DNA of 64,000 nt, taken from positions 124,001 through 188,000 of the forward strand of contig NZ_JAPQNT010000006.1 of the NCBI RefSeq assembly GCF_028867965.1, written 5' to 3'. This document shows, piece by piece, positions 25,093 to 63,242 of the stretch. The DNA is from Flavobacterium sp. SUN046 (GTDB lineage: Bacteria > Bacteroidota > Bacteroidia > Flavobacteriales > Flavobacteriaceae). A model generated the notes under the pieces. That model was not told the origin of the DNA. It saw only the letters and a list, made by a program, of their open reading frames with translations, and ran no database searches. The number at the start of each line of letters is the position of its first letter. Within the stretch, counting starts at the first letter, position 1. The position numbers were made by a program, and so were the translations under genes.

Positions 25093-27000
<1,908 letters not shown>

Positions 27001-27020: not shown

Positions 27021-27062
27021 TAAACAAATAATTGCTTTAAAAATGAAGCAGTTATTTGTTTA
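27021..27062. terminator. Bidirectional terminator between acs and the fructokinase gene
   Basis: A 17-bp inverted repeat (arms 27021-27037 and 27046-27062) with one T-G wobble and an 8-nt loop. It is A/T rich with TTGCTT/AAGCA at the tip and T tracts at the base. The right arm includes the stop codon of the kinase gene. Confidence 0.7.
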
Positions 27063-27953
27063 AGAAACTTTACTTTTTAAAAATAAATTAATCGCATCAG
27101 CGCTAATTTCAGGATTAGCTCCTTTATGTGAAGCAACTAAAGCGCCAACGATACATCCAAATTCTACAGCATAAGAATAATCATTCGTATATAAAACTTT
27201 AGATAAAAGTGCTGCCAAAAAGCTATCTCCAGCTCCAATAGTATCCGCTACTTTTACTTCAATTCCGTTATTGCTATAAAATTGATTGTTACTATATAAG
27301 ACCGCTCCATCTTTACCTTTAGTTACACAAATTGTTTTAGTATTTGTAAGTTCAGAAAGGAATAAAATATTGTCATGAATACTATCTGTTTTTGAACCTA
27401 AAGCTTGTGTTATTTCTAGTAATTCTTCATCGTTTAATTTTACAAAATCAGCTAAATCCATCATTTCTTTTAAGAATGAAATCGAGTAAAATGGAGGCCG
27501 CAAATTGACATCGAAAATTTTATACTTAGCCAACTTTAAAAGAGATAAAAGTGTAGATCTAGAAACTTCATCACGGCAAGCTAGCGAGCCGTAAACTAAA
27601 GCATCTGCTTCTTGAACTGCTTTTTTATTTTCATCATTTAGCTCAATTTTATCCCAAGCTGATGGATACACAATATCATAAGTAGCGCTTCCGTTTTCAT
27701 TCAAATGAACCAAAACTTCTCCGGTAGAAAGCTTTTCATCAATTTGAATTAAAGACGTAGCAACATTTTTATTTTTAATAATTTCTAAAAGAGCATTACC
27801 CAAAGAATCTTTTCCAATTTTAGAAATCATTTTGGTTTCAATTCCCAAAGATTGCAAACGAATAGAAACGTTCATTGGTGCGCCACCAGCAATTTTTTCA
27901 GTCGGTAAAACATCCCATAACACTTCGCCAAAACAAACTATTTTTTTATTCAT
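27060..27953 (-). CDS. PfkB-family fructokinase
   Basis: A 297-residue ribokinase-fold sugar kinase. It opens with KKIVCFGEVLWDVLPTEKIAGGAPMNVS, the fructokinase-type N-terminus with the GG substrate-binding pair, and carries the PfkB signature DTIGAGDSFLAAL with the catalytic Asp. It lies last in an operon after the GH32 enzyme and MFS importer (6 bp after the latter). The most likely substrate is therefore fructose released from fructan or sucrose, phosphorylated to fructose-6-phosphate in the cytoplasm. Confidence 0.9.
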   Translation of the reverse strand: MNKKIVCFGEVLWDVLPTEKIAGGAPMNVSIRLQSLGIETKMISKIGKDSLGNALLEIIKNKNVATSLIQIDEKLSTGEVLVHLNENGSATYDIVYPSAWDKIELNDENKKAVQEADALVYGSLACRDEVSRSTLLSLLKLAKYKIFDVNLRPPFYSISFLKEMMDLADFVKLNDEELLEITQALGSKTDSIHDNILFLSELTNTKTICVTKGKDGAVLYSNNQFYSNNGIEVKVADTIGAGDSFLAALLSKVLYTNDYSYAVEFGCIVGALVASHKGANPEISADAINLFLKSKVS

Positions 27954-27959
27954 ATTACT

Positions 27960-29282
27960 TTAATTAGATAAGCTTTCAGATAATTCTTCTAACGTTTGAC
28001 CTTTAGTCTCGGGCATTTTAAAGAATACCCAAAGCAACTGAAAAACCATCATAACACAAAAAATTATAAAAACGGTTGCAGTTCCAATTTCTTTAAACAA
28101 AAACGGAATAAATGATGGAATTAATGCAGCCAAAACCCAATGGACGGAACAGCCAAAAGCTTGTCCAGCAGCACGAAGTTTATTTGGGAAAATTTCAGAA
28201 ATAAATACCCAAATCACCGCACCTTGACCAATAGCATGTGAAGCTATAAAAAGGAAGAAAAATAGTGGCACAAACATTCCTTTCCATTCTAATACAAAAG
28301 CTGTCGATACCAACCCAAGCGATATAATGTAGCCAACTGAACCAATATACATCAAGGTTTTTCTACCGTATTTATCAATCAAACTAATTCCGATAATTGT
28401 AAATAAAAGATTGATAATTCCAATTCCGATGCTACTTAAGAACGATGCTGATTTTTCTAATCCAGCCAATTCAAATATTCGTGGTGCATAATACAAAAAT
28501 GCATTTATACCCGATAATTGATTGAATAATGCTATGAAAAAAGCCAATAATAATGGTTTTCGATATTTTTTCATAAAGATATTTTCTCCCGATACTTCTT
28601 TTGATTTTTCACTTTCAATAGCTTCAAGTTCAGCTTCAACATTAGTATTTGGATTAATTTGTTTTAAAATTGCTAACGCTTTTTCTTTATTCTTTTGATA
28701 TTCTAAAACCCATCGTGGACTTTCAGGAACGCCAAGAACTAATATTGTGTAAATCAATGCAGGAAATGCTTGAATTCCTAACATCCAACGCCATGAATTT
28801 GCACCAATATCTTGTAGAAAAAAGTTAGATGTAAATGCTATTAAAATACCAAAAACTATATTAAATTGATATAATGCGACCAATTTTCCGCGATCTTTAG
28901 CAGGAGCGATTTCAGAGACATAAGTTGGAGCAGCAATAGTTGAAGCGCCAATTCCGAGTCCGCCAATAAATCTAAATAAAGCAAAAAATAAAGAATCATT
29001 TGCAAAAGCAGTTCCAATTGCTGAGATGAAAAATAAAATTCCAATAATAATTAAAGTCTTTTTTCGTCCTAAAACATTAGTTGGATAAGCTCCAAAAATT
29101 GCTCCAATTACGGTTCCCCAAAGTGCCGACGACATTACCACCAAACCATGATATAAGTCGGAAGTATGCCATAAAGTTTGTAATTGTTTGTCTGCACCAG
29201 AAATCACTACCGTATCAAATCCGAATAAAAATCCAGCCAAAGCAACTACTAAAGACCAGTAAATTAATTTTTTGTTGTTCAT
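27960..29282 (-). CDS. MFS sugar porter, probably for fructose
   Basis: A 440-residue major facilitator protein from the ATG at 29282; a TTG nine codons upstream is rejected because it would overlap the GH32 gene. Twelve transmembrane helices are predicted. Sugar-porter signatures: RFIGGLGIGASTIAAPTYVSEIAP (partly), VPESPRWVLEYQKN, QLSGINAFLYYAP and PETKGQTLEE. It is 17 bp after the GH32 stop and 6 bp before the fructokinase start, so it probably imports fructose or sucrose by proton symport across the inner membrane. Confidence 0.9.
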   Translation of the reverse strand: MNNKKLIYWSLVVALAGFLFGFDTVVISGADKQLQTLWHTSDLYHGLVVMSSALWGTVIGAIFGAYPTNVLGRKKTLIIIGILFFISAIGTAFANDSLFFALFRFIGGLGIGASTIAAPTYVSEIAPAKDRGKLVALYQFNIVFGILIAFTSNFFLQDIGANSWRWMLGIQAFPALIYTILVLGVPESPRWVLEYQKNKEKALAILKQINPNTNVEAELEAIESEKSKEVSGENIFMKKYRKPLLLAFFIALFNQLSGINAFLYYAPRIFELAGLEKSASFLSSIGIGIINLLFTIIGISLIDKYGRKTLMYIGSVGYIISLGLVSTAFVLEWKGMFVPLFFFLFIASHAIGQGAVIWVFISEIFPNKLRAAGQAFGCSVHWVLAALIPSFIPFLFKEIGTATVFIIFCVMMVFQLLWVFFKMPETKGQTLEELSESLSN

Positions 29283-29299
29283 GTTTGCTGTTTTTTTAA

Positions 29300-30787
29300 T
29301 TATTTCCAAACTCTGGAAATTGAATTGATTTTAAGGTTGGTAATTGGTGAATTATCTTTGGAAACAATATTTAAAATAGAAAAATCTTTTGTAGGGAAAA
29401 ACAAATTTGTCATGGAATATTTTCCATCATTCAATAAAATTTCAGCAGATGATTTATCTAAAACCAATTTAAATGACGAAATTTTATCATTCAAATTCAT
29501 CACCTGAGAATTGGGTGCAAATGTTTCACTAAAATTAATATTACCTGAATTTCTTCTGTCGGTAATTAACTTATTTTCAGATAACGTAATGGTATAAACT
29601 TCACCTTTAGAATTAGATAATGAAAGAATAAAATTAGTAGTTTTATCAAGGTCGAAAGTTACTTCTGTTTGAGATAAATCAAGATTTACTTTTTCAAATG
29701 GCGTAACAACATTAGCTTGTTCAAAAACTGGCTTTATTAATGTTGAAAATTGCGAAACCAGTTTTTGATTGAGATAATAACCCTTTTTATCTTTGGCTAA
29801 ACTCAATTCTCTTGGCATGGTCATTGCGCTTCGCCAAACTTCAGTTGGAACTTTGGTTGCATACTGCCAATTGCTCATCCAACCCAATAAAATCCTTTTA
29901 TTATCAGGAACATTTGAAAAAGTTACGGCTGCATAAAAATCGGTTCCGTTATCCATCCAAATTGATTTCTGACTTTCTTTGAATGTTTTTCCGTCAAAAT
30001 CACCTACAAAATATCTAGTTCCCGAACCACCATTTGGAGCTTTATCACCATGATTTACAATCATAATCCATTTAGTTTCACCTGAATTAGTTTTCATTGA
30101 AAATAGATCTGGACATTCCCAAACTCCTAATTCTAAATCGTTTGTAGGTTTAAAATCACTCTCAAATTGCCATTGTTTTAAATTAGTAGACGACCAAATT
30201 TTGCTTTTATCACCAACAGCCAATACCATATTCCATTTATTAATTGCTGCATTCCAAAACACTTTTGGATCACGAAAATCTTGTTCACCTGAATTATTCA
30301 AAACTGGATTTTCTTTATATTTTGTCCAGGTTAATCCTTCATCCAAACTGTATGCAATACCTTGACTTTCACAATTCTTTTTTCCAGATTTTACAATTTC
30401 ATCATTGTGATATGTGAAAATTGCAATCATAGCATTTTTTCCAAATCCTGCAGAATTTGTAGTGTCAATTACTGCGCTTCCAGAGAAAATCCATCCTAAT
30501 TTATCAGGATATAAAGCTATTGGTAGTTGTTTCCATTGCAACAAATCAGTACTTACTGCGTGACCCCAATGCATTGGACCCCAAATAATTCCATCAGGAA
30601 AATATTGATAAAACAAATGATACTTTCCATTGAAATAAATCAATCCATTAGGATCATTCATCCACTTAGATTCAGGTGTAAAATGAAATTGCGGTCGGTA
30701 AGGCTCATTATAATTTGTGGTAGAATTATTTTGAGCAAAACTTGTATTAAATAGTAGAATTAGTAAAAAAAGTGCTGTGATTTTCAT
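29300..30787 (-). CDS. Secreted GH32 beta-fructosidase (levanase/inulinase/invertase)
   Basis: A 495-residue glycoside hydrolase family 32 enzyme with a signal peptide (cleavage near TSFAQN, no lipobox), so it is periplasmic or extracellular. The five-bladed propeller carries the three acidic signatures WMNDPNG (nucleophile Asp45), FRDPKVF (transition-state Asp) and ECPDLF (acid/base Glu near 223). A C-terminal beta-sandwich follows. It releases fructose from sucrose, levan or inulin. It heads the operon with the MFS porter and fructokinase. There is no SusC/SusD pair, which Bacteroidetes usually use for polysaccharides, so short substrates are favoured. Confidence 0.92.
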   Translation of the reverse strand: MKITALFLLILLFNTSFAQNNSTTNYNEPYRPQFHFTPESKWMNDPNGLIYFNGKYHLFYQYFPDGIIWGPMHWGHAVSTDLLQWKQLPIALYPDKLGWIFSGSAVIDTTNSAGFGKNAMIAIFTYHNDEIVKSGKKNCESQGIAYSLDEGLTWTKYKENPVLNNSGEQDFRDPKVFWNAAINKWNMVLAVGDKSKIWSSTNLKQWQFESDFKPTNDLELGVWECPDLFSMKTNSGETKWIMIVNHGDKAPNGGSGTRYFVGDFDGKTFKESQKSIWMDNGTDFYAAVTFSNVPDNKRILLGWMSNWQYATKVPTEVWRSAMTMPRELSLAKDKKGYYLNQKLVSQFSTLIKPVFEQANVVTPFEKVNLDLSQTEVTFDLDKTTNFILSLSNSKGEVYTITLSENKLITDRRNSGNINFSETFAPNSQVMNLNDKISSFKLVLDKSSAEILLNDGKYSMTNLFFPTKDFSILNIVSKDNSPITNLKINSISRVWK

Positions 30788-30904: not shown

Positions 30905-31579
30905 TTAAAATAATACTTTTAAAATCAATTTTTCCATCAATTTATAACCTTCCAAATTTGGATGAACTCCATCCTCACCATACTTTTTATCTAAACCTTT
31001 ATTTTGGTCAACAAGTGCCGAATAATAATCTACAAAAGTTATTTTATTTTTATCCGCATACAATTTAATCAACTTATTCAAGGCAATTACTTTGTCAGCA
31101 GGTTCTATTTTTGGACTCCAATTAAAATGATTTGCAGGCAAAACGGAACATAAAACGACTTTAATTTTATTACTTTTTGCTAATTCACACATAGAAACAA
31201 TATTTCCGAAAATAGCATCAATAGTAATTGGACCTGTATTTTCAGCAATATCATTTATTCCAGCCAAAATAACTACGGTAGAAGGATTTAACTCAATTAC
31301 ATCTTGACGAAATCGCAACAACATTTGCGGAGTAGTTTGACCACTAATTCCTCTATTAACAAAATTGTTGGATGCAAAAAAATTAGTATTATTTACTTTC
31401 CAAAATTCGGTTATTGAATCGCCCATGAAAACAACGCTTTTAGATGCAATAGGAGCAGTTTTTAAAATTTCATTTTCTGTAGCGTATTTATTTAGATTGG
31501 CCCAATCTTTTTTCATGTTTTCTTGGCTATAAATGGTAAATGGTAGTATTAAAAATAGAATTAGAATGTAATTTTTCAT
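30905..31579 (-). CDS. Secreted SGNH/GDSL hydrolase
   Basis: A 224-residue protein with signal peptide MKNYILILFLILPFTIYSQ. The four SGNH blocks are visible: FMGDSITEFW (nucleophile Ser), GISGQTT (Gly), AGINDIAEN (Asn) and DGVHPNLEGY (Asp and His). Such enzymes are esterases, acetyl esterases or lipases. Its position upstream of the GH32 operon hints at carbohydrate deacetylation, but a 117-bp gap with a repeat cluster separates them, so it need not be co-transcribed. It diverges from the type III PKS cluster. Confidence 0.88.
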   Translation of the reverse strand: MKNYILILFLILPFTIYSQENMKKDWANLNKYATENEILKTAPIASKSVVFMGDSITEFWKVNNTNFFASNNFVNRGISGQTTPQMLLRFRQDVIELNPSTVVILAGINDIAENTGPITIDAIFGNIVSMCELAKSNKIKVVLCSVLPANHFNWSPKIEPADKVIALNKLIKLYADKNKITFVDYYSALVDQNKGLDKKYGEDGVHPNLEGYKLMEKLILKVLF

Positions 31580-31598
31580 CAGAATTAATTTTCAAGTC

Positions 31599-31606
31599 AA
31601 ATTTAG
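31599..31606 (-). promoter_or_regulatory. -7 element for the SGNH hydrolase gene
   Basis: The minus strand reads TAAATTTG, 19 bp before the ATG, matching TAnnTTTG. No -33 TTG at normal spacing. Confidence 0.45.
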
Positions 31607-31631
31607 TATATTTTTTTTATTTTATAATTTT

Positions 31632-31651
31632 TAACAAATGTTATGTAACAT
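31632..31651. promoter_or_regulatory. Alternating TAACA/TGTTA half-sites before the PKS cluster
   Basis: TAACA (31632), TGTTA (31639) and TAACA (31646) lie at a regular 7-bp pitch in alternating orientation; the second and third form the palindrome ATGTTA-TG-TAACAT. The site is 33-52 bp upstream of the first gene of the type III PKS operon, where a promoter would be, and that stretch lacks a TAnnTTTG box. It is a candidate operator. Confidence 0.4.
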
Positions 31652-31683
31652 AGTATCAAATCAAATAATTAATTTTACTCAAT

Positions 31684-32796
31684 ATGATAGAAAATGATAT
31701 TATAATTATCGGTGGTGGTTTGGCTGGATTAATAGCAGGAATTCATCTAGCTAAAAGTGGTTTTTCTATCCTAATCATTGAAAAAAATGAATTCCCTAAA
31801 CACAAAGTTTGTGGAGAATATATTTCTAATGAAGTTTTGAATTATCTCAAATCATTAAATTTAGATATTGAATCACTTAAACCTACACACATTGACAAAT
31901 TGTCATTTTCATTAGTTTCAGGAAAAACAATTGAAACCATTTTACCATTAGGCGGATTTGGCGTAAGTCGCTATGAATTAGATTTTTATTTGTACAAAGA
32001 AGCACTAAAATTAGGTTGTAAAATCATTCAAGAAACTGTTGAGAATATAACTTTTTTGAATGATGCATTTACTGTTGTATCAAATGAATCCAGTTATAAA
32101 TCTAAAGTGGCTGTCGGCGCATTTGGAAAACGTTCCAATCTAGATACTAAATTTAAACGTACATTTATACAGAAAACCTCCAACTGGTTAGGAGTAAAGG
32201 CGCATTACAATTGTGATTTTCCAGATGATTTAGTTGGTTTGCATCATTTTAAAGGCGGCTATTGTGGTATTTCTAAAGTTGAAAATAATCTAGTAAATAT
32301 CTGTTATTTATCTAATTATGAAACATTTAAAAAATATAAAAATATTGATGAGTACCAACACAAAGTAGTTTGTGAAAATCCAAATTTGAAAAAAATATTT
32401 GAAAAAGCGACTTTAAAATTTGAAAAACCACTCACAATTAGTCAGATATCATTTGATAAAAAGGAATGTGTAGAAAATCATATTCTAATGATTGGCGATA
32501 CTGCTGGATTAATTCATCCATTATGCGGAAACGGAATGGCAATGGCGATTCACAGTGCAAAATTGGCTTCAGAAACTATAATTGATTATTTGAAAAACAT
32601 AATTTCGAGAGAAAAAATGGAATCTAATTACACTGAAAAATGGAAGTGTAATTTTAAAAACAGATTAAAAACAGGACGATTATTAGGTAAATTGTTGCAA
32701 AAAGAAAATTTAGCTCAATTAGTGATGAAAATACTAATTATATTTCCATCGTTATTATCTGTAATCATAAAAAAAACTCATGGAAAACCAATATAA
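31684..32796 (+). CDS. FAD-dependent oxidoreductase of the type III PKS cluster
   Basis: A 370-residue flavoprotein of the geranylgeranyl-reductase/aromatic-hydroxylase (PHBH) superfamily. It opens with the Rossmann dinucleotide motif IIIIGGGLAGLIAGI, has the ribose-binding Glu at the end of strand 2 (IIEKN), a KHKVCGEYIS motif typical of geranylgeranyl-reductase-like enzymes, and the second FAD motif MIGDTAGLIHPLCGNGMAMA. By analogy with SrsC in Streptomyces phenolic-lipid synthesis it could hydroxylate or oxidise the polyketide ring, but reduction of an acyl chain is equally possible. It ends exactly where the methyltransferase begins (0 bp). Confidence 0.85.
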   Translation: MIENDIIIIGGGLAGLIAGIHLAKSGFSILIIEKNEFPKHKVCGEYISNEVLNYLKSLNLDIESLKPTHIDKLSFSLVSGKTIETILPLGGFGVSRYELDFYLYKEALKLGCKIIQETVENITFLNDAFTVVSNESSYKSKVAVGAFGKRSNLDTKFKRTFIQKTSNWLGVKAHYNCDFPDDLVGLHHFKGGYCGISKVENNLVNICYLSNYETFKKYKNIDEYQHKVVCENPNLKKIFEKATLKFEKPLTISQISFDKKECVENHILMIGDTAGLIHPLCGNGMAMAIHSAKLASETIIDYLKNIISREKMESNYTEKWKCNFKNRLKTGRLLGKLLQKENLAQLVMKILIIFPSLLSVIIKKTHGKPI

Positions 32797-33510
32797 ATGT
32801 CAATAAATACAAAATATCGAACCGATGAACCCGAAATAATGGATGACTTTCAGCTTGAAGGTGAAATTTTGCAAGATGCATTAGATAAAATTGCGAAAAT
32901 CAACCAACTTTTGGGCGGAAACCAATTAACTTTACAAGGTGTAAAAACACTTTTGAAAAATAAAGATAAAGATTCAGAAATTACAATTGTTGATATTGGT
33001 TGCGGAAATGGCGATATGTTGCGTTACATAGCCGAATTTGGCGACGCAAATGGTTATAATTTTAAATTAATTGGAATTGATGCCAATGCTTTTACCATAA
33101 ATCATGCAACTAATTTATCCAATCATTATCCTAATATTTCTTACAAAGTCATAGATATTTTTGAAGAACCATTTGATGAAGTAAAATACGATATAGTATT
33201 GTGCACGTTAACATTACATCATTTTAAAAATGAAGAAATTATAAAATTAATAGCACAATTTTATGAAAATTCAACAATCGGAATCGTAATTAATGATTTA
33301 CATAGAAGTAAAATTGCTTATCGCTTATTTCAAGCCGTGTGTTTTGTTTTTAATTTGAATAAAATGTCGAAAGATGATGGTTTAGTTTCAATTTTACGCG
33401 GATTCAAAAAAGAAGAATTAGTTGCTTTTTCAAATGAATTAGGATTAAAAAAATACACTCTAAACTGGAAATGGGCATTTCGTTACCAATGGATAATTTT
33501 TAAAGATTGA
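32797..33510 (+). CDS. SAM-dependent methyltransferase of the type III PKS cluster
   Basis: A 237-residue class I methyltransferase. SAM-binding motif I is IVDIGCGNGDMLRYI, motif II acidic loop LIGIDANAF, and a post-motif LCTLTLHHF. There is no membrane segment, unlike the ICMT-type methyltransferase SrsB in Streptomyces. Directly fused in reading order to the flavoprotein (no gap) and 70 bp before the PKS. Likely O- or C-methylation of the polyketide product; the acceptor position is not predictable. Confidence 0.85.
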   Translation: MSINTKYRTDEPEIMDDFQLEGEILQDALDKIAKINQLLGGNQLTLQGVKTLLKNKDKDSEITIVDIGCGNGDMLRYIAEFGDANGYNFKLIGIDANAFTINHATNLSNHYPNISYKVIDIFEEPFDEVKYDIVLCTLTLHHFKNEEIIKLIAQFYENSTIGIVINDLHRSKIAYRLFQAVCFVFNLNKMSKDDGLVSILRGFKKEELVAFSNELGLKKYTLNWKWAFRYQWIIFKD

Positions 33511-33580
33511 AATAACAGTTTAAAATTAAAATTTAAACATAATTAAATAAATGAGATTGCTTTGTGTCTCGCAATACCAA

Positions 33581-34633
33581 ATGAGTGTAAAAATAATAAC
33601 AGTAGCTAAACAACTTCCTGAATTTTCAAGAGAAACTGCTCAAATAATGCCTTTTCTTGATGCTTGGTTAACAGGTCAAGACGAGCGTTTTATTAAAAAA
33701 GTGAAAAAGATTTTTGAAGGTGCCAATGTAGATAAACGCTACTCAATAATGGATCCAATTGAAGTTTTTACCAAAACATCATTTGAAGAAAGAAACCAGA
33801 TTTACGTTAGAGAAGTTATAAAATTAGGCGAAAAAGTACTTACAAAAGCATTAGAAAAAGCCAATTGGAAGCCAACCGATTTAGATTACATAATCACCGT
33901 AAGTTGCACCGGAATTATGATTCCGTCGCTAGATGCTTATTTGATAAACAAATTGGGTTTACGTCAAGACATCATTCGATTACCAGTTACCGAAATGGGC
34001 TGTGTTGCTGGAATTTCAGGAATGATTTATGCTAAGAATTTCCTTCAAGCCAATCCAAATAAAAAAGCAGCGGTTATAGCTGTTGAAAGTCCGACAGCAA
34101 CTTTTCAATTGGATGATTTTTCAATGGCAAATATTGTCAGTTCTGCTATATTTGGCGATGGTTCAGCATGTGTTTTACTTTCGTCTTATGAAGAAGATAA
34201 AGGACCAAAAATTTTAGATGAATCGATGTATCATTTTTATGATAACGAACACATGATGGGTTTTGAAATGACCAATTCGGGATTAAAAATGGTTTTAGAC
34301 ATTGAAGTTCCGGAAACAATTGCATCCCATTTTCCGTTATTTATTCATCCTTTTTTAGAAAAAAATGGATTAACCATTAACGATATCAATCATTTAATAT
34401 TTCATCCTGGTGGCAAAAAAATTGTGCAAACGGTTGAAGAGTTATTCGCTGAATCGGGAAAAAATATTGATGATACTAAAGAAGTTTTACGTTTGTACGG
34501 AAACATGTCAAGCGCAACCGTACTCTACGTTTTAGAACGTTTTATGGATAAAAAACCTAAAGCTGGAGAAATAGGTTTGCTGTTGAGTTTTGGACCAGGT
34601 TTTACCGCACAACGGATTTTAATAGAATTTTAA
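33581..34633 (+). CDS. Type III polyketide synthase (chalcone/stilbene synthase fold)
   Basis: A 350-residue enzyme with the complete Cys-His-Asn triad: Cys141 in TEMGCVAGISG, His275 in IFHPGGKKI and Asn308 in YGNMSSATVLYVL. The C-terminal SFGPGFTAQRI is the family GFGPG loop. I chose the ATG at 33581 (MSVKIITVAKQLP), where similarity to the family begins; the ATG at 33551 adds ten unlikely residues. Type III PKSs extend an acyl starter with malonyl-CoA and cyclise it to resorcinols or pyrones. With its own ACP and ketosynthase nearby, the starter is probably an acyl-ACP or acyl-CoA. Confidence 0.93.
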   Translation: MSVKIITVAKQLPEFSRETAQIMPFLDAWLTGQDERFIKKVKKIFEGANVDKRYSIMDPIEVFTKTSFEERNQIYVREVIKLGEKVLTKALEKANWKPTDLDYIITVSCTGIMIPSLDAYLINKLGLRQDIIRLPVTEMGCVAGISGMIYAKNFLQANPNKKAAVIAVESPTATFQLDDFSMANIVSSAIFGDGSACVLLSSYEEDKGPKILDESMYHFYDNEHMMGFEMTNSGLKMVLDIEVPETIASHFPLFIHPFLEKNGLTINDINHLIFHPGGKKIVQTVEELFAESGKNIDDTKEVLRLYGNMSSATVLYVLERFMDKKPKAGEIGLLLSFGPGFTAQRILIEF

Positions 34634-34639
34634 AAATAT

Positions 34640-34692
34640 AACCGCAGATTCGCAGATTAAAATTTTTAAAAAAAATCTGCGAATCTGCGGTT
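34640..34692. repeat. Perfect 19-bp inverted repeat (palindromic element) within the PKS cluster
   Basis: Arms 34640-34658 (AACCGCAGATTCGCAGATT) and 34674-34692 are exact reverse complements around a 15-bp A/T loop. Each arm contains CGCAGATT twice in tandem. It lies in the 67-bp gap between the type III PKS and the dehydratase genes, so the transcript would carry a very stable hairpin. The tandem-plus-inverted layout matches dispersed palindromes known from Flavobacteria and may also attenuate transcription. Confidence 0.8.
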
Positions 34693-34700
34693 AAAAGAAT

Positions 34701-35129
34701 ATGAAAAAAAAAGAACTAATTTCAAATTTACCCTATTCAAAACCATTTTTATTTGTAGATGAGATTCTTCAAATAAATGAAAATGGAGTAGAAGGTACGT
34801 TTACATTTGATTCAAGTTTAAATTTTTACAAAGGTCATTTTAAAGACAATCCAATTACACCAGGTGTTATTCTTATTGAAACTATGGCACAGATTGGAGT
34901 TGTATGTTTAGGGATTTTTCTATTGGGAAATAATTTTAATGCAAATACCAAAATTGCATTAACATCGTCGGAAGTTGAATTTTTAAAACCAGTTTTTCCA
35001 TCAGAAAAAGTAATTGTAATTTCGGAAAAAGTATATTTTAGATTCGGAAAATTAAAATGCAAAGTCAGAATGATAAATGATAAAGGAATTGATGTATGTC
35101 GTGGAACTATTTCAGGAATGATTGTTTGA
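34701..35129 (+). CDS. FabZ-like 3-hydroxyacyl-ACP dehydratase
   Basis: A 142-residue hotdog-fold protein with the FabZ/FabA signature YKGHFKDNPITPGVILIE (catalytic His46, Pro and Glu downstream in IETMAQIG). FabZ dehydrates 3-hydroxyacyl-ACP. A second, housekeeping FabZ is fused to LpxC at 61854, so this copy is probably dedicated to the acyl chain of the PKS cluster. It follows a stable hairpin and precedes the ketosynthase by 37 bp. Confidence 0.88.
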   Translation: MKKKELISNLPYSKPFLFVDEILQINENGVEGTFTFDSSLNFYKGHFKDNPITPGVILIETMAQIGVVCLGIFLLGNNFNANTKIALTSSEVEFLKPVFPSEKVIVISEKVYFRFGKLKCKVRMINDKGIDVCRGTISGMIV

Positions 35130-35166
35130 AAATCTTAATGAAACTTAATTTCTTAATGGTTTAAAA

Positions 35167-36441
35167 ATGTTAAAAAGAGTAGTCATAACAGGTTTAGGAG
35201 TTGTTGCACCAAATGGAGTAGGACTTGACTCGTTTACAAATGCCATAAAAAACGGAATATCGGGAATAAAACATGATGCCGAATTAGAACGTTTACAATT
35301 TTCATGTCAAATATCAGGAACACCAAAAATATCAGAAGAACTAAAACGTAATTATTTTACCGAATTAGAACTTCGTAATTTCAATTCTACTGGAATATTA
35401 TACGGAGTAATTGCTGGACTTGACGCTTGGAAAGACGCAGGATTAACAATTGAAAATAATGAAAATCCAGATTGGGATTCTGGAACAATTTTTGGAACTG
35501 GAACTTCTGGAATAGAAAAATTTAGAGAAAGTATCTACAAAATTGATGCTTTTGAAACCAGAAAACTCGGAAGCACAGCCGTTGCACAAACTATGAACAG
35601 TGGCGTAAGTGCTTATCTTGGTGGGAAATTAGGCTTAGGAAATTGCGTCACCACCAACTCATCGGCTTGTACAACTGGAACCGAAAGTATTTTGATGGCG
35701 TTCGACCGAATTCAATCTGGTAAAGCCAAACGAATTCTTGCAGGTAGCACAAGTGATTCTGGACCCTATATTTGGGGTGGATTTGATGCTATGAAAGTTT
35801 GCACGTATAAACATAATGATGCACCAGAAAAAGGTTCTAGACCAATGAGTGCAACTGCTTCAGGATTTGTTCCAGGAAGCGGAAGTGGTGCATTTGTATT
35901 AGAAGACTTGGAAACAGCTTTGGCAAGAAATGCAAAAATTTACTGTGAAGTTCTTGGCGGAAATGTGAATTCTGGCGGACAACGTGGTTTGGGAACAATG
36001 ACGGCACCAAATCCAGTAGCTGTTCAAAAATGTATTGTTGATGCTATTACAAATGCAGGAATTCAACCTAATGAAATTGATACCATCAACGGACATTTAA
36101 CAGCAACTTCTAAAGACAGTTTGGAAATTCAGAATTGGAGTGAAGCTTTGAATTTGAAAGGAGTTGATTTTCCAGAAATAAATTCGCTAAAATCAATGAT
36201 TGGTCACTGTTTATCGGCTTCTGGAAGTATTGAAAGTGTTGCTGCAATTTTGCAATTATATCATAATTTCATCTTTCCAAATATCAATTGTGATGATTTG
36301 ATTCCAGAAATTACCGCTATTATTGATGAAAGTAAAATTCCACAAAAACTAATTGAACGTGAAATAAATATTGTAGCTAAAGCTAGTTTTGGTTTTGGAG
36401 ATGTGAATGGATGTGTTATCTTTAAAAAATATAAATCATAA
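35167..36441 (+). CDS. Beta-ketoacyl-ACP synthase (KAS II/FabF-like) of the PKS cluster
   Basis: A 424-residue thiolase-fold condensing enzyme. The active Cys168 lies in TTNSSACTTGTESI, the two His in INGHLTATSKDS (His310) and IGHCLSASGS (His347), and the C-terminal GFGDVNGC is present. The first His motif differs from the usual AHGT(S/G)T of FabF, so this belongs to a divergent KAS branch. It probably elongates an acyl chain on the neighbouring ACP before hand-over to the type III PKS. 110 bp separate it from the ACP gene, including a repeat fragment. Confidence 0.9.
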   Translation: MLKRVVITGLGVVAPNGVGLDSFTNAIKNGISGIKHDAELERLQFSCQISGTPKISEELKRNYFTELELRNFNSTGILYGVIAGLDAWKDAGLTIENNENPDWDSGTIFGTGTSGIEKFRESIYKIDAFETRKLGSTAVAQTMNSGVSAYLGGKLGLGNCVTTNSSACTTGTESILMAFDRIQSGKAKRILAGSTSDSGPYIWGGFDAMKVCTYKHNDAPEKGSRPMSATASGFVPGSGSGAFVLEDLETALARNAKIYCEVLGGNVNSGGQRGLGTMTAPNPVAVQKCIVDAITNAGIQPNEIDTINGHLTATSKDSLEIQNWSEALNLKGVDFPEINSLKSMIGHCLSASGSIESVAAILQLYHNFIFPNINCDDLIPEITAIIDESKIPQKLIEREINIVAKASFGFGDVNGCVIFKKYKS

Positions 36442-36445
36442 AAAG

Positions 36446-36469
36446 GTCTTCGACAGGCTCAGACTGACA
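36446..36469. repeat. Fragment of a dispersed repeat (CTTCGACAGGCTCAGACTGACA type)
   Basis: The sequence just after the ketosynthase stop closely matches the widespread element core TTCGACAAGCTCAG..TGACA, seen as dispersed palindromes in many Bacteroidetes genomes. Only one arm is present here, so it looks like a remnant. Confidence 0.45.
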
Positions 36470-36551
36470 ATTGCAGATTAAATTATTTGAATAAAACGAG
36501 AAATAAATTATTTCAAATCAAAAAATATTAATTAAAGTTTAAAAATAAATT

Positions 36552-36806
36552 ATGAATAAAAAAGAAGTAATTGAACAATTAAAAACAATTGTAAAACCTT
36601 ACATAAATAATCAAGAAGCATTTGAAAATCTATCAGAATCAACTGATTTTATTAAAGATTTACAAATAAATTCAGCTAATTTAGTTGATGTAATTTTAGA
36701 TATTGAAGATCATTATAAAATTGAAATCGATACCGTTTCTATGGAGCGAATGGTTGATGTAAAATCGGCATTGGATATTATCGAAACCAAATTATCACAA
36801 AAATGA
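36552..36806 (+). CDS. Acyl carrier protein with atypical NSA phosphopantetheine site
   Basis: An 84-residue acidic four-helix ACP. The canonical DSL at the prosthetic-group site is replaced by Asn40-Ser41-Ala42 (LQINSANLVDVILDIE), keeping the serine that takes 4'-phosphopantetheine. Length and helix pattern match the family. The last four bases overlap the phosphopantetheinyl transferase start (ATGA), strongly suggesting the two act together. Dedicated carrier for the PKS cluster rather than general AcpP. Confidence 0.88.
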   Translation: MNKKEVIEQLKTIVKPYINNQEAFENLSESTDFIKDLQINSANLVDVILDIEDHYKIEIDTVSMERMVDVKSALDIIETKLSQK

Positions 36807-37288
36807 TTGGAAATGATGTTGTAGATTTAGCTTTAGCAACTACTCAAAGTAACTGGAAACGAAAAGGTTATCTTGATAAAATCTTTACAAATTTAGAACA
36901 AGAATTTATTTTAAAAAGTTCTAATCCAAATGAAATGGTTTGGAGTTTGTGGAGTAGGAAAGAAGCTGTTTATAAGATTATTATCCAAAAAGGTGGAATA
37001 CGAGGCTATTATCCAAAAAAAATTGAATGTATGAATTCCGATTTTGAAAATGGATTGGTAGCATTTGAAAATCAATTGTTTTATACAATAACTATAATTT
37101 TAAATGATTTAATTCATTCGTTAGCAGTCGAAAACAATGAAGATTTTGATAAAATTTCAGGTAAAATCACTATTGAAAATCTAAAAAAAATAAATGAAAT
37201 TCCTTTTTATGAATTGGATTCTAAATTATATGCTGCTTCCAAAAGTCATCATGGTAAATTTGAAAAGAGTGTTTATTTACAATCCTAA
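36803..37288 (+). CDS. 4'-phosphopantetheinyl transferase superfamily protein
   Basis: A 161-residue single-domain (Sfp-half/AcpS-like) PPTase. Motifs: IGNDVVDL at residues 2-9 (Mg2+ Asp) and WSLWSRKEAVYKIIIQKG (WxxKEA block). Expected to transfer phosphopantetheine from CoA to Ser41 of the upstream ACP, with which it overlaps by four bases. The 3' end overlaps the converging exonuclease gene by 12 bp, so the operon ends without a spacer. Confidence 0.88.
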   Translation: MIGNDVVDLALATTQSNWKRKGYLDKIFTNLEQEFILKSSNPNEMVWSLWSRKEAVYKIIIQKGGIRGYYPKKIECMNSDFENGLVAFENQLFYTITIILNDLIHSLAVENNEDFDKISGKITIENLKKINEIPFYELDSKLYAASKSHHGKFEKSVYLQS

Positions 37289-37870
37289 CCTAGATTTTAG
37301 TTTCAAAAATAATAGTGCTATAGTGTAAGCATCGTCTGTGGTCGAAATTCTTTCGGTTTTTGAAATTTTAAAAATATGACTTAATTCATCTAAAGAAAAG
37401 TTTTTGTCATTAATGTCATGCAGTTTTTTATACATAACTTCTATATCTAAAGCTTCATTTTTCAATCTTCCGCAAGCTAATTTTTCTAGAGCTTCGTTAA
37501 TCATTTCTACATCAAAATTGATTCTGTGTCCGACTAATGTTGAATTTCCGATAAATTCAATTAGTTTTTCTATAGCTTGAACTTCCGATAATTTTGGTTG
37601 TTCCGATTCTAAAAGAAAATCATTAGACAAACCATTATCATGCAGGAATTTATATTGCGGAATAGTTACTTCAAAAACATCTCCAATTAGAATATTATTA
37701 TTGACAACACCAATAGCACCAAATGAAAGAATGACATCTTTTTTAGGATTTAAACCAGTAGTTTCAACAGATAAAGCAATATATCTAGACGGTTTTTTAT
37801 CAAATTTAGATAAATACGTTTTCCAGAATTCAGGATGTTCTTTGTTAATATTTTTTAACCAATCGAGCAT
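37277..37870 (-). CDS. DnaQ-like exonuclease-fold protein with degenerate active site
   Basis: A 197-residue protein with the DEDDh exonuclease fold. ExoI appears as ALSVETTGLNP, in which the first metal-binding Asp is Ser34 and only Glu36 remains. ExoII (GHRINFDVEMIN) keeps its Asp. ExoIII (ISTTDDAYT) keeps Asp but shows Ile where the catalytic His normally sits. Two of five key residues are therefore missing, so activity is doubtful. It starts 3 bp after the DUF294/CBS gene. In Vibrio, Pseudomonas and others a DnaQ-like gene pairs with a DUF294 gene next to acs/actP, which suggests a regulatory role in acetate metabolism. Confidence 0.8.
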   Translation of the reverse strand: MLDWLKNINKEHPEFWKTYLSKFDKKPSRYIALSVETTGLNPKKDVILSFGAIGVVNNNILIGDVFEVTIPQYKFLHDNGLSNDFLLESEQPKLSEVQAIEKLIEFIGNSTLVGHRINFDVEMINEALEKLACGRLKNEALDIEVMYKKLHDINDKNFSLDELSHIFKISKTERISTTDDAYTIALLFLKLKSRLGL

Positions 37871-37873
37871 ATC

Positions 37874-39787
37874 TTATGAAAATTGTGTCAGTTGAAATTT
37901 ATCTTTTATCAATTCTTCAAGGTCGCGCATAGGAGCAAGAGCATTTTTTAATTTTTCTTTGTCCACTTTATTTAACTCTTCCATATTGATGTATTGCCCA
38001 GAACTATCGTTTTTTAAACCTTCAAGAACTCTAAATTTTGACAATATTAGAAAAGCCTCAGCACAATTCAAATAAATTTCTGAAAATTTAGGATCAACCA
38101 TAGCTAATTGTTTGTATCTTAAATAAGTACTATTAATTCCACGAATATTATTACTCATTACAAGCAATCTTGCTGCATCAATTAATGGCATTAAAGCTCT
38201 TGTTTTTATATCAAATTTGCCTTTGTGTTCACCTTCTTCTTCAAGATTAAATTTCTTAAAAAAGTTCAACGGAGCAGGTTTCTTTAAAGCATCGTTTCCT
38301 AAAAAGTCATAAAATAACACTTTATTTTTAGCATCTTTAAAAATAACATCAGTGATGGCATCTTCAATTTTTTGTTCTCCAAAAGCAATTTCATAATCAA
38401 AGAAAACACTACTTATTTCATTTGAGTTTTCACCTGGAGTATTCATCCAACTACTGTATTGTTTGTTCCAGTCAGTCAATGATTTACACCATAACATATT
38501 ACTCGCCATGTGACCTTGCGGACAAGCTGTAAAACCAACTTTTTCTAATGTTGTGGTAGTTTTTTTAGCTAATTTTAAAAAGTAATCTTTAACATCACGG
38601 TATTTTTCAGCAGAAACATCTTCAAAAACCAAAATACTATCTTGATCAGTTAATAAAAGTTGTTCTTTACGACCTTGACTTCCAATACTTAACCATGCAA
38701 ATCGGGCAGGTGGTGAGCCTAAATCTAAAATTGCTTGTTCTACAGCGCGTTTGATTATTGCAAGTGTAATTTCACCAGCAATACTATTAATATGTGTAAG
38801 CGGAATGTTTTTGTTTAGAGATGATTGAATAATGTCTGCCAATTTATCTCTGACCAACTTAAGTTCTTTAGCGCCTTGTGAACGCTTGATTTCTTTGAGT
38901 AAAACACCAGGATTATTTGCTTGAGCAACGACTAAATCGTGTTCAGAAATAATTCCTTTTATATCTGATTTATCAGTTCCGTCGTGAGTTACGCACAAAT
39001 GGGTTACACCGTGTTTTAACATAACTAACTGCGCTTCAGCAACCGAAATATTCTCAGTAACGGTAATTACTGGCGATGCCATTATTTTATCAATAGAATT
39101 AGAAAATGCAACACGACCTGTGGCAACTTTGGAACGGAAATCTTTATCGGTAACAATACCAACAGGATAGCTGTCTTCAGTAATCAAAACGCTATCTAAC
39201 ATATTATCGGTAACCAATTGAGCAGCATCTTTAATCATGGTGCCTGAACTAATTTTCAATGGCGTTTTATTGTATGATAATGATTGAAAATACAACATAT
39301 CTGATTGATTATCAGTATATCCAACATTATCTGAAATCAAACCATGATTCTGACTTTCTAAATTTCCTTTGGTATTTGCTGCAAAGCTTTCTAATAAAAA
39401 GTCTAAAACATTTGAATTTTGAGCCACAAATGGTTTAAATGTCGCAATTGGAATAGCATAAACAACACTTTCTTCACGAGCTTTGGCCGTCATTTGATAA
39501 TTATTTTTAGCAAAAAATGGGCGTAAACCAAATATATCGCCAGCATAACATTTGTTCAAAAGCGTTTCCTCTGCATCTGAAATAACCGTTAAATGAATCA
39601 CGCCAGAAGCTACAACATAAAATGAATCATGTAAAATATCATTTATTTGAAATAAAGATTTGTGTTTTTCAAGATTTATAACACGAATTGTATTGGCAAT
39701 CTTAATTAAATCATCAAATGATAAATGATTAAAAGGTTCGTATTCTTTTAAAAAATCAGCTACTCGCTGTGAAATTGCATTGCTCAT
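37874..39787 (-). CDS. cNMP-binding/CBS/DUF294 nucleotidyltransferase signalling protein
   Basis: A 637-residue multidomain protein: a cyclic-nucleotide-binding-like domain (about 10-125), two CBS domains (about 170-290) and a DUF294 nucleotidyltransferase domain with IGSQGRKEQLLLTDQDS (GS...R.E....D.D metal site, near 370-390). A helical substrate-binding domain follows (about 480-637). It resembles GlnD/ANT-type transferases fused to sensors, so it may modify a partner in response to nucleotides. It is transcribed with the degenerate exonuclease. Its target is unknown. Confidence 0.88.
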   Translation of the reverse strand: MSNAISQRVADFLKEYEPFNHLSFDDLIKIANTIRVINLEKHKSLFQINDILHDSFYVVASGVIHLTVISDAEETLLNKCYAGDIFGLRPFFAKNNYQMTAKAREESVVYAIPIATFKPFVAQNSNVLDFLLESFAANTKGNLESQNHGLISDNVGYTDNQSDMLYFQSLSYNKTPLKISSGTMIKDAAQLVTDNMLDSVLITEDSYPVGIVTDKDFRSKVATGRVAFSNSIDKIMASPVITVTENISVAEAQLVMLKHGVTHLCVTHDGTDKSDIKGIISEHDLVVAQANNPGVLLKEIKRSQGAKELKLVRDKLADIIQSSLNKNIPLTHINSIAGEITLAIIKRAVEQAILDLGSPPARFAWLSIGSQGRKEQLLLTDQDSILVFEDVSAEKYRDVKDYFLKLAKKTTTTLEKVGFTACPQGHMASNMLWCKSLTDWNKQYSSWMNTPGENSNEISSVFFDYEIAFGEQKIEDAITDVIFKDAKNKVLFYDFLGNDALKKPAPLNFFKKFNLEEEGEHKGKFDIKTRALMPLIDAARLLVMSNNIRGINSTYLRYKQLAMVDPKFSEIYLNCAEAFLILSKFRVLEGLKNDSSGQYINMEELNKVDKEKLKNALAPMRDLEELIKDKFQLTQFS

Positions 39788-56591: not shown

Positions 56592-57338
56592 TTATGTTAA
56601 CATTCCTCCGCAAACATTTAAAACTTGACCTGAAACATAAGCACTCATATCGGAAGCAAAAAACAAACAAGCATTTGCAACATCTTCTGGAGTTCCGCCA
56701 CGTTTCAACGGAATTGAATCTCTCCAACCTTGTACTACATCGTCATTTAATTTTGCGGTCATTTCGGTTTCGATAAATCCTGGTGCAATTGCGTTACAAC
56801 GAATATTTCTAGAACCCAATTCTAAAGCAACTGATTTAGTAAAACCAATCATTCCTGCTTTAGATGCAGCGTAATTAGCTTGTCCGGCGTTACCTTTCAC
56901 TCCTACTACACTACTCATATTCACAATTGAACCTTTACGGTTTTTCAACATAATTTTTTGAACTGCTTTAGTCATATTGAATACCGATTTCAAGTTGATT
57001 TCGATAACTTTATCAAAATCTTCCTCACTCATTCGCATCAATAAATTGTCTTTTGTAACTCCGGCATTATTGATTAAAATATCAACATTTCCGAAATCAG
57101 CCATAACATCATCGACTAATTTTTGAGCTTCATTAAAATCGGCAGCATTTGATTTATATCCTTTTGATTTTATTCCTAAAGCGTTCAATTCATTTTCTAA
57201 AGCCAATGCCGATTCGACAGATGAACTATATGTAAAAGCTACATTTGCACCGTGTTGAGCGAATACTTTAGCAATTCCGCTCCCAATTCCGCGGCTTGCA
57301 CCAGTAATAATAGCTACTCTTCCTTCAAGTAATTTCAT
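56592..57338 (-). CDS. fabG: 3-oxoacyl-ACP reductase FabG
   Basis: A 248-residue short-chain dehydrogenase. NADP(H)-binding GASRGIGSGIAKVFA near residue 13, ILINNAGVTKD, catalytic Ser in NMSSVVGVKGN and YxxxK as YAASK, and the family end SGQVLNVCGGM. It reduces 3-ketoacyl-ACP in fatty-acid synthesis. It has its own -7 element and is not clustered with other fab genes here. Confidence 0.95.
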   Translation of the reverse strand: MKLLEGRVAIITGASRGIGSGIAKVFAQHGANVAFTYSSSVESALALENELNALGIKSKGYKSNAADFNEAQKLVDDVMADFGNVDILINNAGVTKDNLLMRMSEEDFDKVIEINLKSVFNMTKAVQKIMLKNRKGSIVNMSSVVGVKGNAGQANYAASKAGMIGFTKSVALELGSRNIRCNAIAPGFIETEMTAKLNDDVVQGWRDSIPLKRGGTPEDVANACLFFASDMSAYVSGQVLNVCGGMLT

Positions 57339-61853: not shown

Positions 61854-63242
61854 TTATTGTTTTTTAGCTATTTGAGCCATTAATTCTGCTTCGGCAACTA
61901 ATTTTCCGTTAGCATAAGCATTGGCTTGCATGTGACAAATTCCTCTTCTTATTGGTGTAATTAACTCACATTTGAATATTAAAGTATCTCCGGGAAGTAC
62001 TTTATGTTTGAACTTAACATTATCAATTTTCATAAAATAAGTCAAGTAATTTTCAGGATCTGGAACCGTGCTTAATACTAAAATTCCGCCTGATTGTGCC
62101 ATTGCTTCTACAATTAAAACTCCAGGCATAACTGGCGCATCAGGAAAATGCCCTACGAAGAAATTTTCATTCATGGTAACATTTTTCATACCAACGACAT
62201 GTTTATCGGACATTTCGATAATTCTATCAATCAATAAAAATGGTGGTCGATGCGGAAGAATACTCATAATTTTATGAATATCCATTAATGGTGGCAAATT
62301 CAAATCGAAAACTGGAATTTGATTTTTTTGTTCGATTTTAATAATCTTAGCCATTTTCTTAGCAAACTGTGTGTTTACAAAATGACCTGGTTTATTGGCA
62401 ATAACTTTTCCTTTAATTCTTATTCCGATAAGTGCTAAATCACCAATTACATCAAGTAACTTGTGACGTGCAGCTTCATTTGGATAATGCAATGTTAGGT
62501 TGTCTAAAATTCCGTTCTCTTTAACCGAAATATGTTCTTTACCAAAAGCTTTCTTCAAATTCTCCATTGTTGCTGGAGATATTTCTTTATCTACATATAC
62601 AATTGCATTATTCAAATCGCCACCTTTGATTAAACCATTATCCAATAAAGTTTCTAGTTCATGTAAAAAACTGAAGGTTCTGGCATTAGCAATTTCAGTT
62701 TTAAAATCAGTTATATTTTTTAATGTCGCATTTTGCGTTCCAAGAACTTTAGTACCAAAATCAACCATTGCTGTCACTTGATAATCATCTGATGGCATGA
62801 CAATAATTTCGCTTCCTGTAGCTTCATCAGTAAATGAAATCACTTCTTTAACTACATAATATTTGCGTTCAGCATCTTGTTCTTCAACACCAACTTGTTC
62901 AATAGCTTCTACAAAAAACTTAGACGAACCATCCATAATTGGCGGTTCAGATTCGTTCAATTCAATGATAACGTTATCAACATCACAACCAACAAAAGCG
63001 GCTAAAACGTGCTCTGATGTTTGAATTTTAACACCTAATTTTTCTAAATTAGTTCCTCTTTGGGTATTTACTACATAATTTGCATCAGCTTCAATCATTG
63101 GACTTCCTTCAAGATCAACTCTTATAAAGGTAAAACCATTGTTAATTGGTGCTGGTTTAAAAGTCATTTTAACTTCTTTACCTGTGTGTAATCCTACTCC
63201 TGTAAGTGAAATTTCACTTTTGATGGTTTTTTGCTTAACCAT
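61854..63242 (-). CDS. lpxC: Bifunctional LpxC deacetylase / FabZ dehydratase fusion
   Basis: A 462-residue fusion. Residues 1-300 are LpxC, with GVGLHTGKEV, the Zn ligand in SEHVLAAF, ELNESEPPIMDGSS and the second metal site HKLLDVIGDLAL. Residues about 315-462 are FabZ, with ILPHRPPFLLIDRI and GHFPDAPVMPGVLIVEAM. Deacetylation commits UDP-sugar to lipid A; FabZ competes for the same 3-hydroxyacyl-ACP pool in fatty-acid synthesis. The fusion is typical of Bacteroidetes and may balance the two fluxes. Confidence 0.97.
   Translation of the reverse strand: MVKQKTIKSEISLTGVGLHTGKEVKMTFKPAPINNGFTFIRVDLEGSPMIEADANYVVNTQRGTNLEKLGVKIQTSEHVLAAFVGCDVDNVIIELNESEPPIMDGSSKFFVEAIEQVGVEEQDAERKYYVVKEVISFTDEATGSEIIVMPSDDYQVTAMVDFGTKVLGTQNATLKNITDFKTEIANARTFSFLHELETLLDNGLIKGGDLNNAIVYVDKEISPATMENLKKAFGKEHISVKENGILDNLTLHYPNEAARHKLLDVIGDLALIGIRIKGKVIANKPGHFVNTQFAKKMAKIIKIEQKNQIPVFDLNLPPLMDIHKIMSILPHRPPFLLIDRIIEMSDKHVVGMKNVTMNENFFVGHFPDAPVMPGVLIVEAMAQSGGILVLSTVPDPENYLTYFMKIDNVKFKHKVLPGDTLIFKCELITPIRRGICHMQANAYANGKLVAEAELMAQIAKKQ

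Follow-up and report, generated by a model that had tools for sequence, protein, structure and literature searches.

A type III polyketide synthase cluster of Flavobacterium with its own acyl-chain genes, and the phenolic lipid it is predicted to make

The question raised by this locus is where the acyl chain used by a type III polyketide synthase (T3PKS) comes from when the enzyme is encoded beside a ketosynthase (KAS), a dehydratase (DH), an acyl carrier protein (ACP) and a phosphopantetheinyl transferase (PPTase), and what product results. The answer favored here, with a probability of about 60%, is that the cluster makes a methylated, hydroxylated phenolic lipid, for which its own KAS, DH, ACP and PPTase would supply acyl-ACP to the T3PKS. 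T3PKS clusters of Flavobacteriaceae are already known from antiSMASH surveys: their share of the predicted biosynthetic clusters is put at 9% by a study that covered 66 bacteria (PMC7440613) and at 10.74% by a survey covering 2,680 genomes (PMC10734526), and the available excerpts of both name no product. The present analysis gives this widespread form of cluster a concrete, testable pathway and a defined gene membership.

Gene content and conservation of the cluster

The window is the whole stretch of DNA analyzed, 64 kb of Flavobacterium sp. SUN046; its list of open reading frames (ORFs) holds seven co-linear ORFs, all on the + strand, at 31684-37288. The first two encode a flavoprotein with the FAD-dependent monooxygenase fold (FMO, 31684-32796; Pfam FAD_binding_3 above its gathering score), predicted to be a ring hydroxylase, and a class I SAM methyltransferase (MT, 32797-33510; Methyltransf_25 above cut-off), with a junction of 0 bp. 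The T3PKS follows (33581-34633; Chal_sti_synt_N and _C), then the FabZ-like 3-hydroxyacyl-ACP dehydratase (34701-35129; Pfam FabA above cut-off), the FabF/FabB-like KAS (35167-36441; ketoacyl-synt N and C), the ACP (36552-36806) and the PPTase (36803-37288; Pfam ACPS above cut-off), the last two overlapping by 4 bp. Pfam gathering scores are reached by six of the seven proteins; the 84-aa ACP matches no Pfam model, and the NCBIfam ACP models match it, all below their cut-offs. The top curated model for the KAS is NCBIfam fabF, at 266.8 bits, below its cut-off of 493.75.

As for the start of the T3PKS, the 360-aa ORF opens at 33551, and the ATG at 33581, giving a protein of 350 aa, is most likely the true start, because many of its relatives among the 120 matches listed are 350 aa long and because in most of the 80 named loci the alignment begins at residue 10-11 of the ORF. 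Numbered from this ATG, the catalytic residues are Cys141, His275 and Asn308; with this triad and the chalcone-synthase fold, the protein belongs to the type III PKS superfamily.

Catalytic residues were tabulated for the window and 96 loci (80 named, 16 from divergent genomes), with row totals that vary by gene. The T3PKS triad is intact in 97 of 97 rows, like G68, G70 and G72 of the MT, while His46 and Glu60 of the DH are intact in 96 of 96. In the KAS, Cys168 is intact in all 96 rows, and His310, Lys342 and His347 in 95, the remaining row being gapped. Ser41, the attachment residue of the ACP, is kept in 95 of 95 rows, always preceded by Asn; the window motif is I-N-S-A, unlike D-S-L. Finally, D5, K53, E54 and K58 of the PPTase are kept in 87 of 87 rows. 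What the sequence-only reading had picked out in this one stretch, namely the same-strand run with its 0 and 4 bp junctions, the T3PKS triad, KAS Cys168-His310-His347, DH His46 and ACP Ser41, was recovered in full, and these KAS, DH and ACP residues are conserved across the aligned loci.

Regarding the FMO, the comparison was based on the DG motif of flavoproteins and its Asp. This Asp is absent: the window has Phe147, and the 97 rows of the table have Phe (68), Tyr (27), His (1) or a gap (1). Because the Asp is replaced, hydroxylation of the ring by this protein is not certain. Its best NCBIfam subfamily is geranylgeranyl reductase, with a score of 109 that is below the cut-off of 158.8; that assignment was rejected on account of this score and of the fold comparison, which puts halogenases and hydroxylases first among the structures it lists.

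The complete seven-gene order is found in 75 of the 80 named loci; the other five are three Kaistella loci that have no PPTase and two loci that run into contig ends. The full set of seven is also present in a strain of the laboratory species Flavobacterium johnsoniae (L048). All 16 divergent genomes have the first six genes in order, and the PPTase is missing from five of them. In addition, the T3PKS and KAS orthologues occur in the identical 33 of 395 Bacteroidota genomes. Conserved order and co-occurrence rule out a chance neighborhood, and the cluster is common to many Flavobacterium relatives; a gene order unique to this strain, which the sequence-only reading had named as an argument against a dedicated pathway, was not borne out by this check.

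The keto step and a reductase of the relatives

No ketoreductase was found in any cluster examined, the window included, in agreement with the earlier remark that the set has no obvious one. The FabG suggested as its substitute, near 56592, corresponds to a sequence match at 56604-57314 (- strand), a housekeeping FabG-like reductase outside the cluster and the predicted supplier of ketoreduction. In the relatives a further gene may lie between the T3PKS and DH genes, as in 12 of the 16 divergent genomes and four of the 80 named loci, and it is absent from the window; judged by its sequence, it is an enoyl-reductase-like SDR. Its best NCBIfam model is FabL, at 135.8-147.1 bits for the three SDRs scored, below the cut-off of 328. 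A Tyr-x6-Lys pair is present in all 16 SDRs sited between T3PKS and DH; a 17th match (L079) was excluded because the gap there is too small for any gene, and when all 17 rows are tabulated, a single Val stands at the Tyr position. The gene was also considered as a ketoreductase hidden in the cluster, and this was dismissed on its FabL-like character and on its Y-x6-K pair, against the Y-x3-K of FabG.

The SDR sits in deep branches of the cluster's tree, which favors a chain that was originally saturated, and its natural presence, as in Kaistella, or absence, as in Flavobacterium, offers a ready-made comparison. Relocation of the SDR within the SUN046 genome was rejected, as the best matches are just 30% identical and all four resemble ordinary SDRs. 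In the window, the T3PKS-DH gap, where relatives have the SDR gene, is occupied by a perfect 20-bp inverted repeat (34639-34693, unstranded; z -9.7); it is a dispersed repeat, its 17-base core having 13 matches genome-wide with at most one mismatch and none for the reversed control.

The acyl-chain genes within and beyond the cluster

The same genome holds FabF, AcpP and LpxC-FabZ elsewhere, and the KAS, DH and ACP of the cluster are additional to these. The presence of flexirubin genes elsewhere in the genome was set aside on a search with the KAS as query: the sole further match adjoins biotin-synthesis-like genes.

A related SDR-DH-KAS-ACP-PPTase block exists without this T3PKS. Among 298 genomes of two other families, 13 of the 33 that bear the KAS have the block divergently beside the dialkylresorcinol genes DarB, DarG and DarH. 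In C. pinensis, darB and darA are Cpin_6850 and Cpin_6851 (excerpt of PMC3992019), and the Azoarcus dar locus is also described with a ketosynthase and an ACP (excerpt of PMC3949708). The ring-forming enzyme of the Dar loci, DarB, is KAS III-like and uses fatty-acid intermediates, whereas that of the window is a T3PKS, which scores 20.8 bits on the DarB/StlD model, below its cut-off of 550. The block also occurs with no aromatic synthase nearby, at L151-L153 (with glycosyltransferase and GNAT-like neighbors), L176, L180 and L189; therefore, adjacency to the T3PKS is by itself no proof that a chain is handed over. The earlier proposal of a special acyl chain, made by KAS, DH and ACP for the T3PKS, is thus partly supported: dedication gains from the additional gene set, from its joint inheritance with the T3PKS (together in 33 of 33 genomes) and from the related block beside DarB, while the hand-over does not follow from gene position.

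From these occurrences we infer that SDR-DH-KAS-ACP-PPTase would be a portable acyl-ACP module, able to work with more than one kind of resorcinol-forming synthase; if so, transferring this small block from one ring-forming enzyme to the other would give a way to study the length and saturation of the chain. A wider idea, which we hold tentatively and at a little short of an even chance, is that Bacteroidota may plug a type II acyl-ACP factory into a T3PKS (Flavobacteriaceae) or into DarB (other families), as a plug-and-play route to resorcinolic lipids, with lineages whose enoyl reductase was lost, such as that of the window, giving an unsaturated, ring-conjugated chain. To our knowledge, this would be the first case of a T3PKS supplied by type II fatty-acid enzymes of its own. 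A literature search covering titles and abstract openings, with subscription papers mostly outside its scope, returned no description of the cluster or of the shared module.

Predicted pathway and its alternatives

In the proposed pathway, the PPTase would load the carrier protein, and the KAS would elongate the acyl-ACP, with keto reduction borrowed from FabG; enoyl reduction would fall to the SDR in the relatives and here to a housekeeping enzyme, or the double bond would stay. Cys141 of the T3PKS would then receive the acyl-ACP directly, and about three malonyl-CoA condensations followed by ring closure would give a 5-alkylresorcinol, with an alkylpyrone as second choice. Finally, the ring would be methylated by the MT and hydroxylated by the FMO, following the pattern of srs and hierridin biosynthesis. 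In Streptomyces griseus, SrsB and SrsC reportedly act as methyltransferase and flavoprotein hydroxylase alongside SrsA, and we know of no acyl module in srsABC. In the Azotobacter ars system, a type I FAS is said to hand its chain directly to the T3PKS, a precedent for direct transfer.

The srs genes, whose SrsA alkylresorcinols are oxidized to alkylquinones (excerpt of PMC10896814), were compared with the window by description. The cyanobacterial hierridin operon hidABC and the MT-oxidoreductase-T3PKS operon of planctomycetes, which give an alkylresorcinol backbone, share with the window the adjacent MT, oxidoreductase and T3PKS genes; as described in the excerpts of PMC8086630 and PMC10896814, their order is MT-oxidoreductase-PKS or PKS-MT-oxidoreductase, and they consist of three genes with no acyl-chain set, whereas the window and its orthologues have FMO-MT-PKS, followed in the window by the dedicated KAS, DH, ACP and PPTase. 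Azotobacter arsABCD resembles the window in encoding an acyl-chain maker next to the T3PKS (excerpt of PMC13291983); that maker consists of large PUFA-synthase-like type I enzymes, whereas the window has free-standing type II KAS, DH and ACP. In the cylindrocyclophane pathway, CylB-D-H-I pass a PKS-built chain, with a free ACP, to a resorcinol-making T3PKS (excerpt of PMC8086630), using type I PKS modules, halogenation and dimerization in place of the type II set. It should be noted that several observations count against the phenolic lipid: the similarity to the pyrone-making PKS11, DpgA as top model, the free-standing acyl block, the loci with no PPTase, the lost Asp of the FMO, the lack of a ketoreductase in the cluster, and the planctomycete case, in which adding the MT and the oxidoreductase led to methylation and to no alkylquinone (excerpt of PMC10896814).

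As for the ring, the alkylpyrone synthase PKS11 is the solved structure that comes closest to the T3PKS both in sequence and in fold, and CylI, a resorcinol enzyme, is second by fold. The top NCBIfam model is DpgA, a malonyl-primed enzyme, at 175.3 bits, below the cut-off of 425. In the PKS tree, the window clade is separate from 11 PKSs of PKS-MT-FMO trios of other Bacteroidota; only this separation was used, and reading the ring type from the tree was dropped because long branches meet.

The match to PKS11 would fit an alkyl-alpha-pyrone head group, with the MT methylating an oxygen of the pyrone and the flavoprotein acting on the pyrone or the chain. This is rather unlikely in view of the second rank of CylI, of the related acyl module in DarB loci, and of the MT and oxidoreductase neighbors, which accompany resorcinol pathways (excerpts of PMC10896814 and PMC8086630). 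More doubtful still is a product with two acyl inputs, in which the T3PKS ring would derive from housekeeping acyl-CoA or acyl-ACP or from a small starter, and the KAS/DH/ACP fatty acid would be joined later to the phenol, in a flexirubin-like manner. It draws on the DpgA match, on the module occurring without the T3PKS, and on flexirubin itself, whose polyene is built separately and ester-linked to a dialkylresorcinol (excerpt of PMC3992019); against it, the seven-gene run has no acyltransferase or ligase, an acetyl-CoA-synthetase-like gene (25093-27000) is set apart by other genes, and the module of the Dar loci adjoins DarB, whose product condenses from fatty-acid intermediates (excerpts of PMC3949708 and PMC3992019). 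Finally, an aryl-polyene-like system, in which KAS and DH would act after or instead of the T3PKS to build a polyene or enoyl pigment on the ACP, the T3PKS giving a small aromatic starter, is very improbable: the flexirubin polyene has been proposed to come from ketosynthase/reductase/dehydratase sets (excerpt of PMC3992019) and the window has no SDR, but the gene run has a single ketosynthase and no exporter, and the deep-branch SDR favors a chain that was originally saturated.

Upstream of the phenolic-lipid cluster, a search for TAnnTTTG promoters at 31000-31700 gave one match, at 31106, which lies within an opposite-strand gene and is uninformative. The acetyl-CoA-synthetase-like gene is kept upstream in 35 of the 80 named loci, with other genes intervening before the cluster.

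Gene organization and proposed pathway

Seven genes lie on the + strand within 31684-37288, as the sequence-only reading had claimed, and code for a flavoprotein (FMO), a methyltransferase (MT), a type III polyketide synthase (T3PKS), a FabZ-like dehydratase (DH), a ketosynthase (KAS), a carrier protein (ACP) and a phosphopantetheinyl transferase (PPTase); the junctions it gave, 0 bp and 4 bp, are correct, and the inner gaps measure 37-110 bp with a PKS start at 33581. This ATG is the likely start because many T3PKS relatives among the 120 matches listed are 350 aa long, and because alignments to the window ORF begin at residue 10-11 in most of the 80 named loci (defined below); numbered from it, the proposed catalytic residues C141, H275 and N308 are confirmed. 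Six of the seven proteins score above Pfam gathering cut-offs, the ACP has NCBIfam matches below cut-off only, and the catalytic residues of the cluster enzymes are retained over up to 97 alignment rows.

With a probability of about 60%, the cluster provides a dedicated acyl-ACP supply to a T3PKS that forms a resorcinol, with methylation and hydroxylation as later steps: acyl-ACP from the cluster set would be handed to the PKS, which would close the resorcinol ring, and MT and FMO would act after ring formation; the location of the product is likewise putative. Regarding precedents, some T3PKSs accept ACP-bound substrates, with a C14 acyl-ACP starter proposed for HidC and a PKS chain as the starter of CylI (PMC8086630). 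Planctomycete T3PKSs expressed in C. glutamicum yielded alkylresorcinols, and adding the G. maris MT and oxidoreductase gave a single methylation and no oxidation to alkylquinones, according to PMC10896814, which assigns alkylquinones to the SrsA and FtpA pathways. The cluster is a variant of known T3PKS phenolic-lipid pathways, not a new kind of system. Two of the strongest objections concern parts of the scheme: PKS11, the PKS with the closest solved structure, is a pyrone maker, which weighs against resorcinol formation, and the DG motif of the FMO is altered, which makes hydroxylation less certain.

As for the acyl genes, the same genome has a second FabF (35% identical) adjoining an AcpP with the D-S-L motif, and the window holds an LpxC-FabZ fusion (match 61980-62273), so the cluster KAS, DH and ACP are extra copies; a third KS adjoins biotin-type genes. 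Asn precedes the ACP serine in 95 of 95 rows, which might account for a private PPTase; eight loci have the cluster ACP and lack its PPTase, which is therefore not indispensable at the locus. The KAS-ACP gap contains CTTCGACAGGCTCAGACTGACA (36448-36469, one copy in the window), which we take to be a common intergenic repeat of Bacteroidetes.

Conservation and surroundings

A PKS search of genome contigs gave 241 relatives, the nearest named ones being Flavobacterium, and the gene content of the best 80 (the named loci) was defined by local tblastn with all seven proteins. In 75 of them all seven genes occur in the same order and strand, so that an order unique to this strain is ruled out; PPTase is missing from three Kaistella loci (L037, L042, L073), and L026 and L074 run out at contig ends. 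The contig of L026, with a PKS ~80% identical, is filed as Candidatus Nitrotoga, probably a MAG binning error.

Among 395 Bacteroidota genomes, 108 had a PKS match at 1e-40, with a clear gap between two groups: identity was 66-100% in 33 of them and did not exceed 37% in the other 75; KAS orthologues (60-100%) occurred in exactly the same 33, and five extra genomes had KAS relatives at 49-56%. Wide flanks were fetched for the 16 divergent genomes of the 33: all had FMO-MT-PKS-DH-KAS-ACP in order, and 11 had PPTase in addition. At the cut-offs used, PKS, KAS and FMO were all absent from 7 of 24 congeneric genomes (with the window's own among the 24) and from 4 of 17 others of the family, therefore the set is gained or lost as a unit. 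Distances of six cluster genes correlated with r of 0.70-0.86 (39 of the 97 rows), part of which would be expected from common descent alone.

Upstream, an acetyl-CoA-synthetase-like gene (25093-27000) recurs in 35 of the best 80 loci besides the window, and downstream an exonuclease-like and CBS-domain-like pair (37277-39787) recurs in 36 and 35, respectively; on these presumed identities, the cluster may have inserted into a locus for acetate use. The kinase-like, sugar-transporter-like and GH32-like ORFs at 27060-30787 (- strand) are presumably a fructan/sucrose use locus. YceI-family genes lie directly upstream of FMO in L118, L121, L123 and L125, with a second copy just before the first in L123 and L125.

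The reductase between PKS and DH

The window lacks a short-chain reductase (SDR) gene that other loci carry between PKS and DH: an SDR of ~263 aa is found in 12 of the 16 divergent loci, and an SDR occupies this place in 4 of the best 80 (three Kaistella and F. cyanobacteriorum). The best NCBIfam model of the three SDRs tested was FabL enoyl-ACP reductase, at 136-147 bits vs a cut-off of 328; the best PDB match of one was 3oic, an NADPH enoyl-ACP reductase, and Y-x6-K is present in 16 of 16. In a tree of five concatenated proteins, built from 39 rows by a quick method and rooted at the midpoint, the distribution of the SDR requires five changes, and the deep branches are occupied by loci that carry it. 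The most economical interpretation is that the SDR was present early and was lost several times. None of the clusters examined showed a ketoreductase, in agreement with the absence noted earlier, and FabG at 56604-57314 would be the obvious lender of ketoreduction. At the place of the relatives' SDR gene, the PKS-DH gap of the window contains a perfect inverted repeat of 20 bp (34639-34693). Copies of its core are scattered over the genome (13 matches at ≤1 mismatch, reversed control 0), and the repeat could be a scar or form a hairpin in the mRNA.

Other settings of the acyl module

Twenty further regions were hand-chosen around PKS, KAS or FMO relatives. PKS, MT and FMO lay close together without acyl genes in 11 (L148, L154-L157, L159-L164; PKS 27-31% and FMO 38-46% identical), and acyl genes occurred in five (L149-L153); L158 and L165 had FMO without PKS, L166 had PKS without MT and FMO, and L167 had no labelled gene.

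In genomes G391 and G099, SDR-DH-KAS (44-56% identical) and PPTase are divergent and adjoin the dialkylresorcinol gene DarB, whose model scored 614.7 and 634.8 bits (cut-off 550); G391 also has DarG and DarH above their cut-offs and an ACP, and no ACP ORF was called in G099. The KAS proteins of G391 and G099 were searched against two families and matched in 15 genomes out of 147 and in 18 out of 151; no genome had two matches at 1e-120. All 33 loci were inspected, L116 and L119 included: 13 adjoin Dar genes, 14 lie in the T3PKS cluster, 3 are cut by contig ends and 3 (L176, L180, L189) have neither nearby. The 13 Dar loci carry ORFs labelled SDR (13), KAS (13), DH (12), ACP (11) and PPTase (12); the gene that we take to be DarA is named from its position, and no model matched it. 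The ORF that comes first on the Dar side in all 13 divergent loci (L149-L150, L168-L171, L173-L174, L182-L186) has 153-174 aa, and the one tested (L149:9751-10251) had no NCBIfam match at 1e-10.

The Azoarcus dar cluster described in PMC3949708 likewise includes a KS and an ACP gene, so that an acyl supply next to Dar genes is in itself no novelty; a description of a related acyl block common to Dar loci and T3PKS was not found in the literature searched. The finding of the sequence-only reading was sound, and its scope is somewhat larger than stated: the acyl module recurs, and the cluster is one of its several uses rather than a strain curiosity. That the module also exists without an aromatic synthase is a third strong objection, directed at the proposed acyl supply to the PKS. 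DH-KAS-ACP adjoins glycosyltransferase-2 and GNAT-like genes in three more genomes (L151-L153, SDR in L151 only), a third setting that possibly leads to an acylated glycolipid. Finally, L189 has DH-KAS-ACP-PPTase, 39-71% identical to the window, in a 17-kb region without FMO, MT and PKS; it may be the remnant of a full cluster, or the module may serve a different purpose there.
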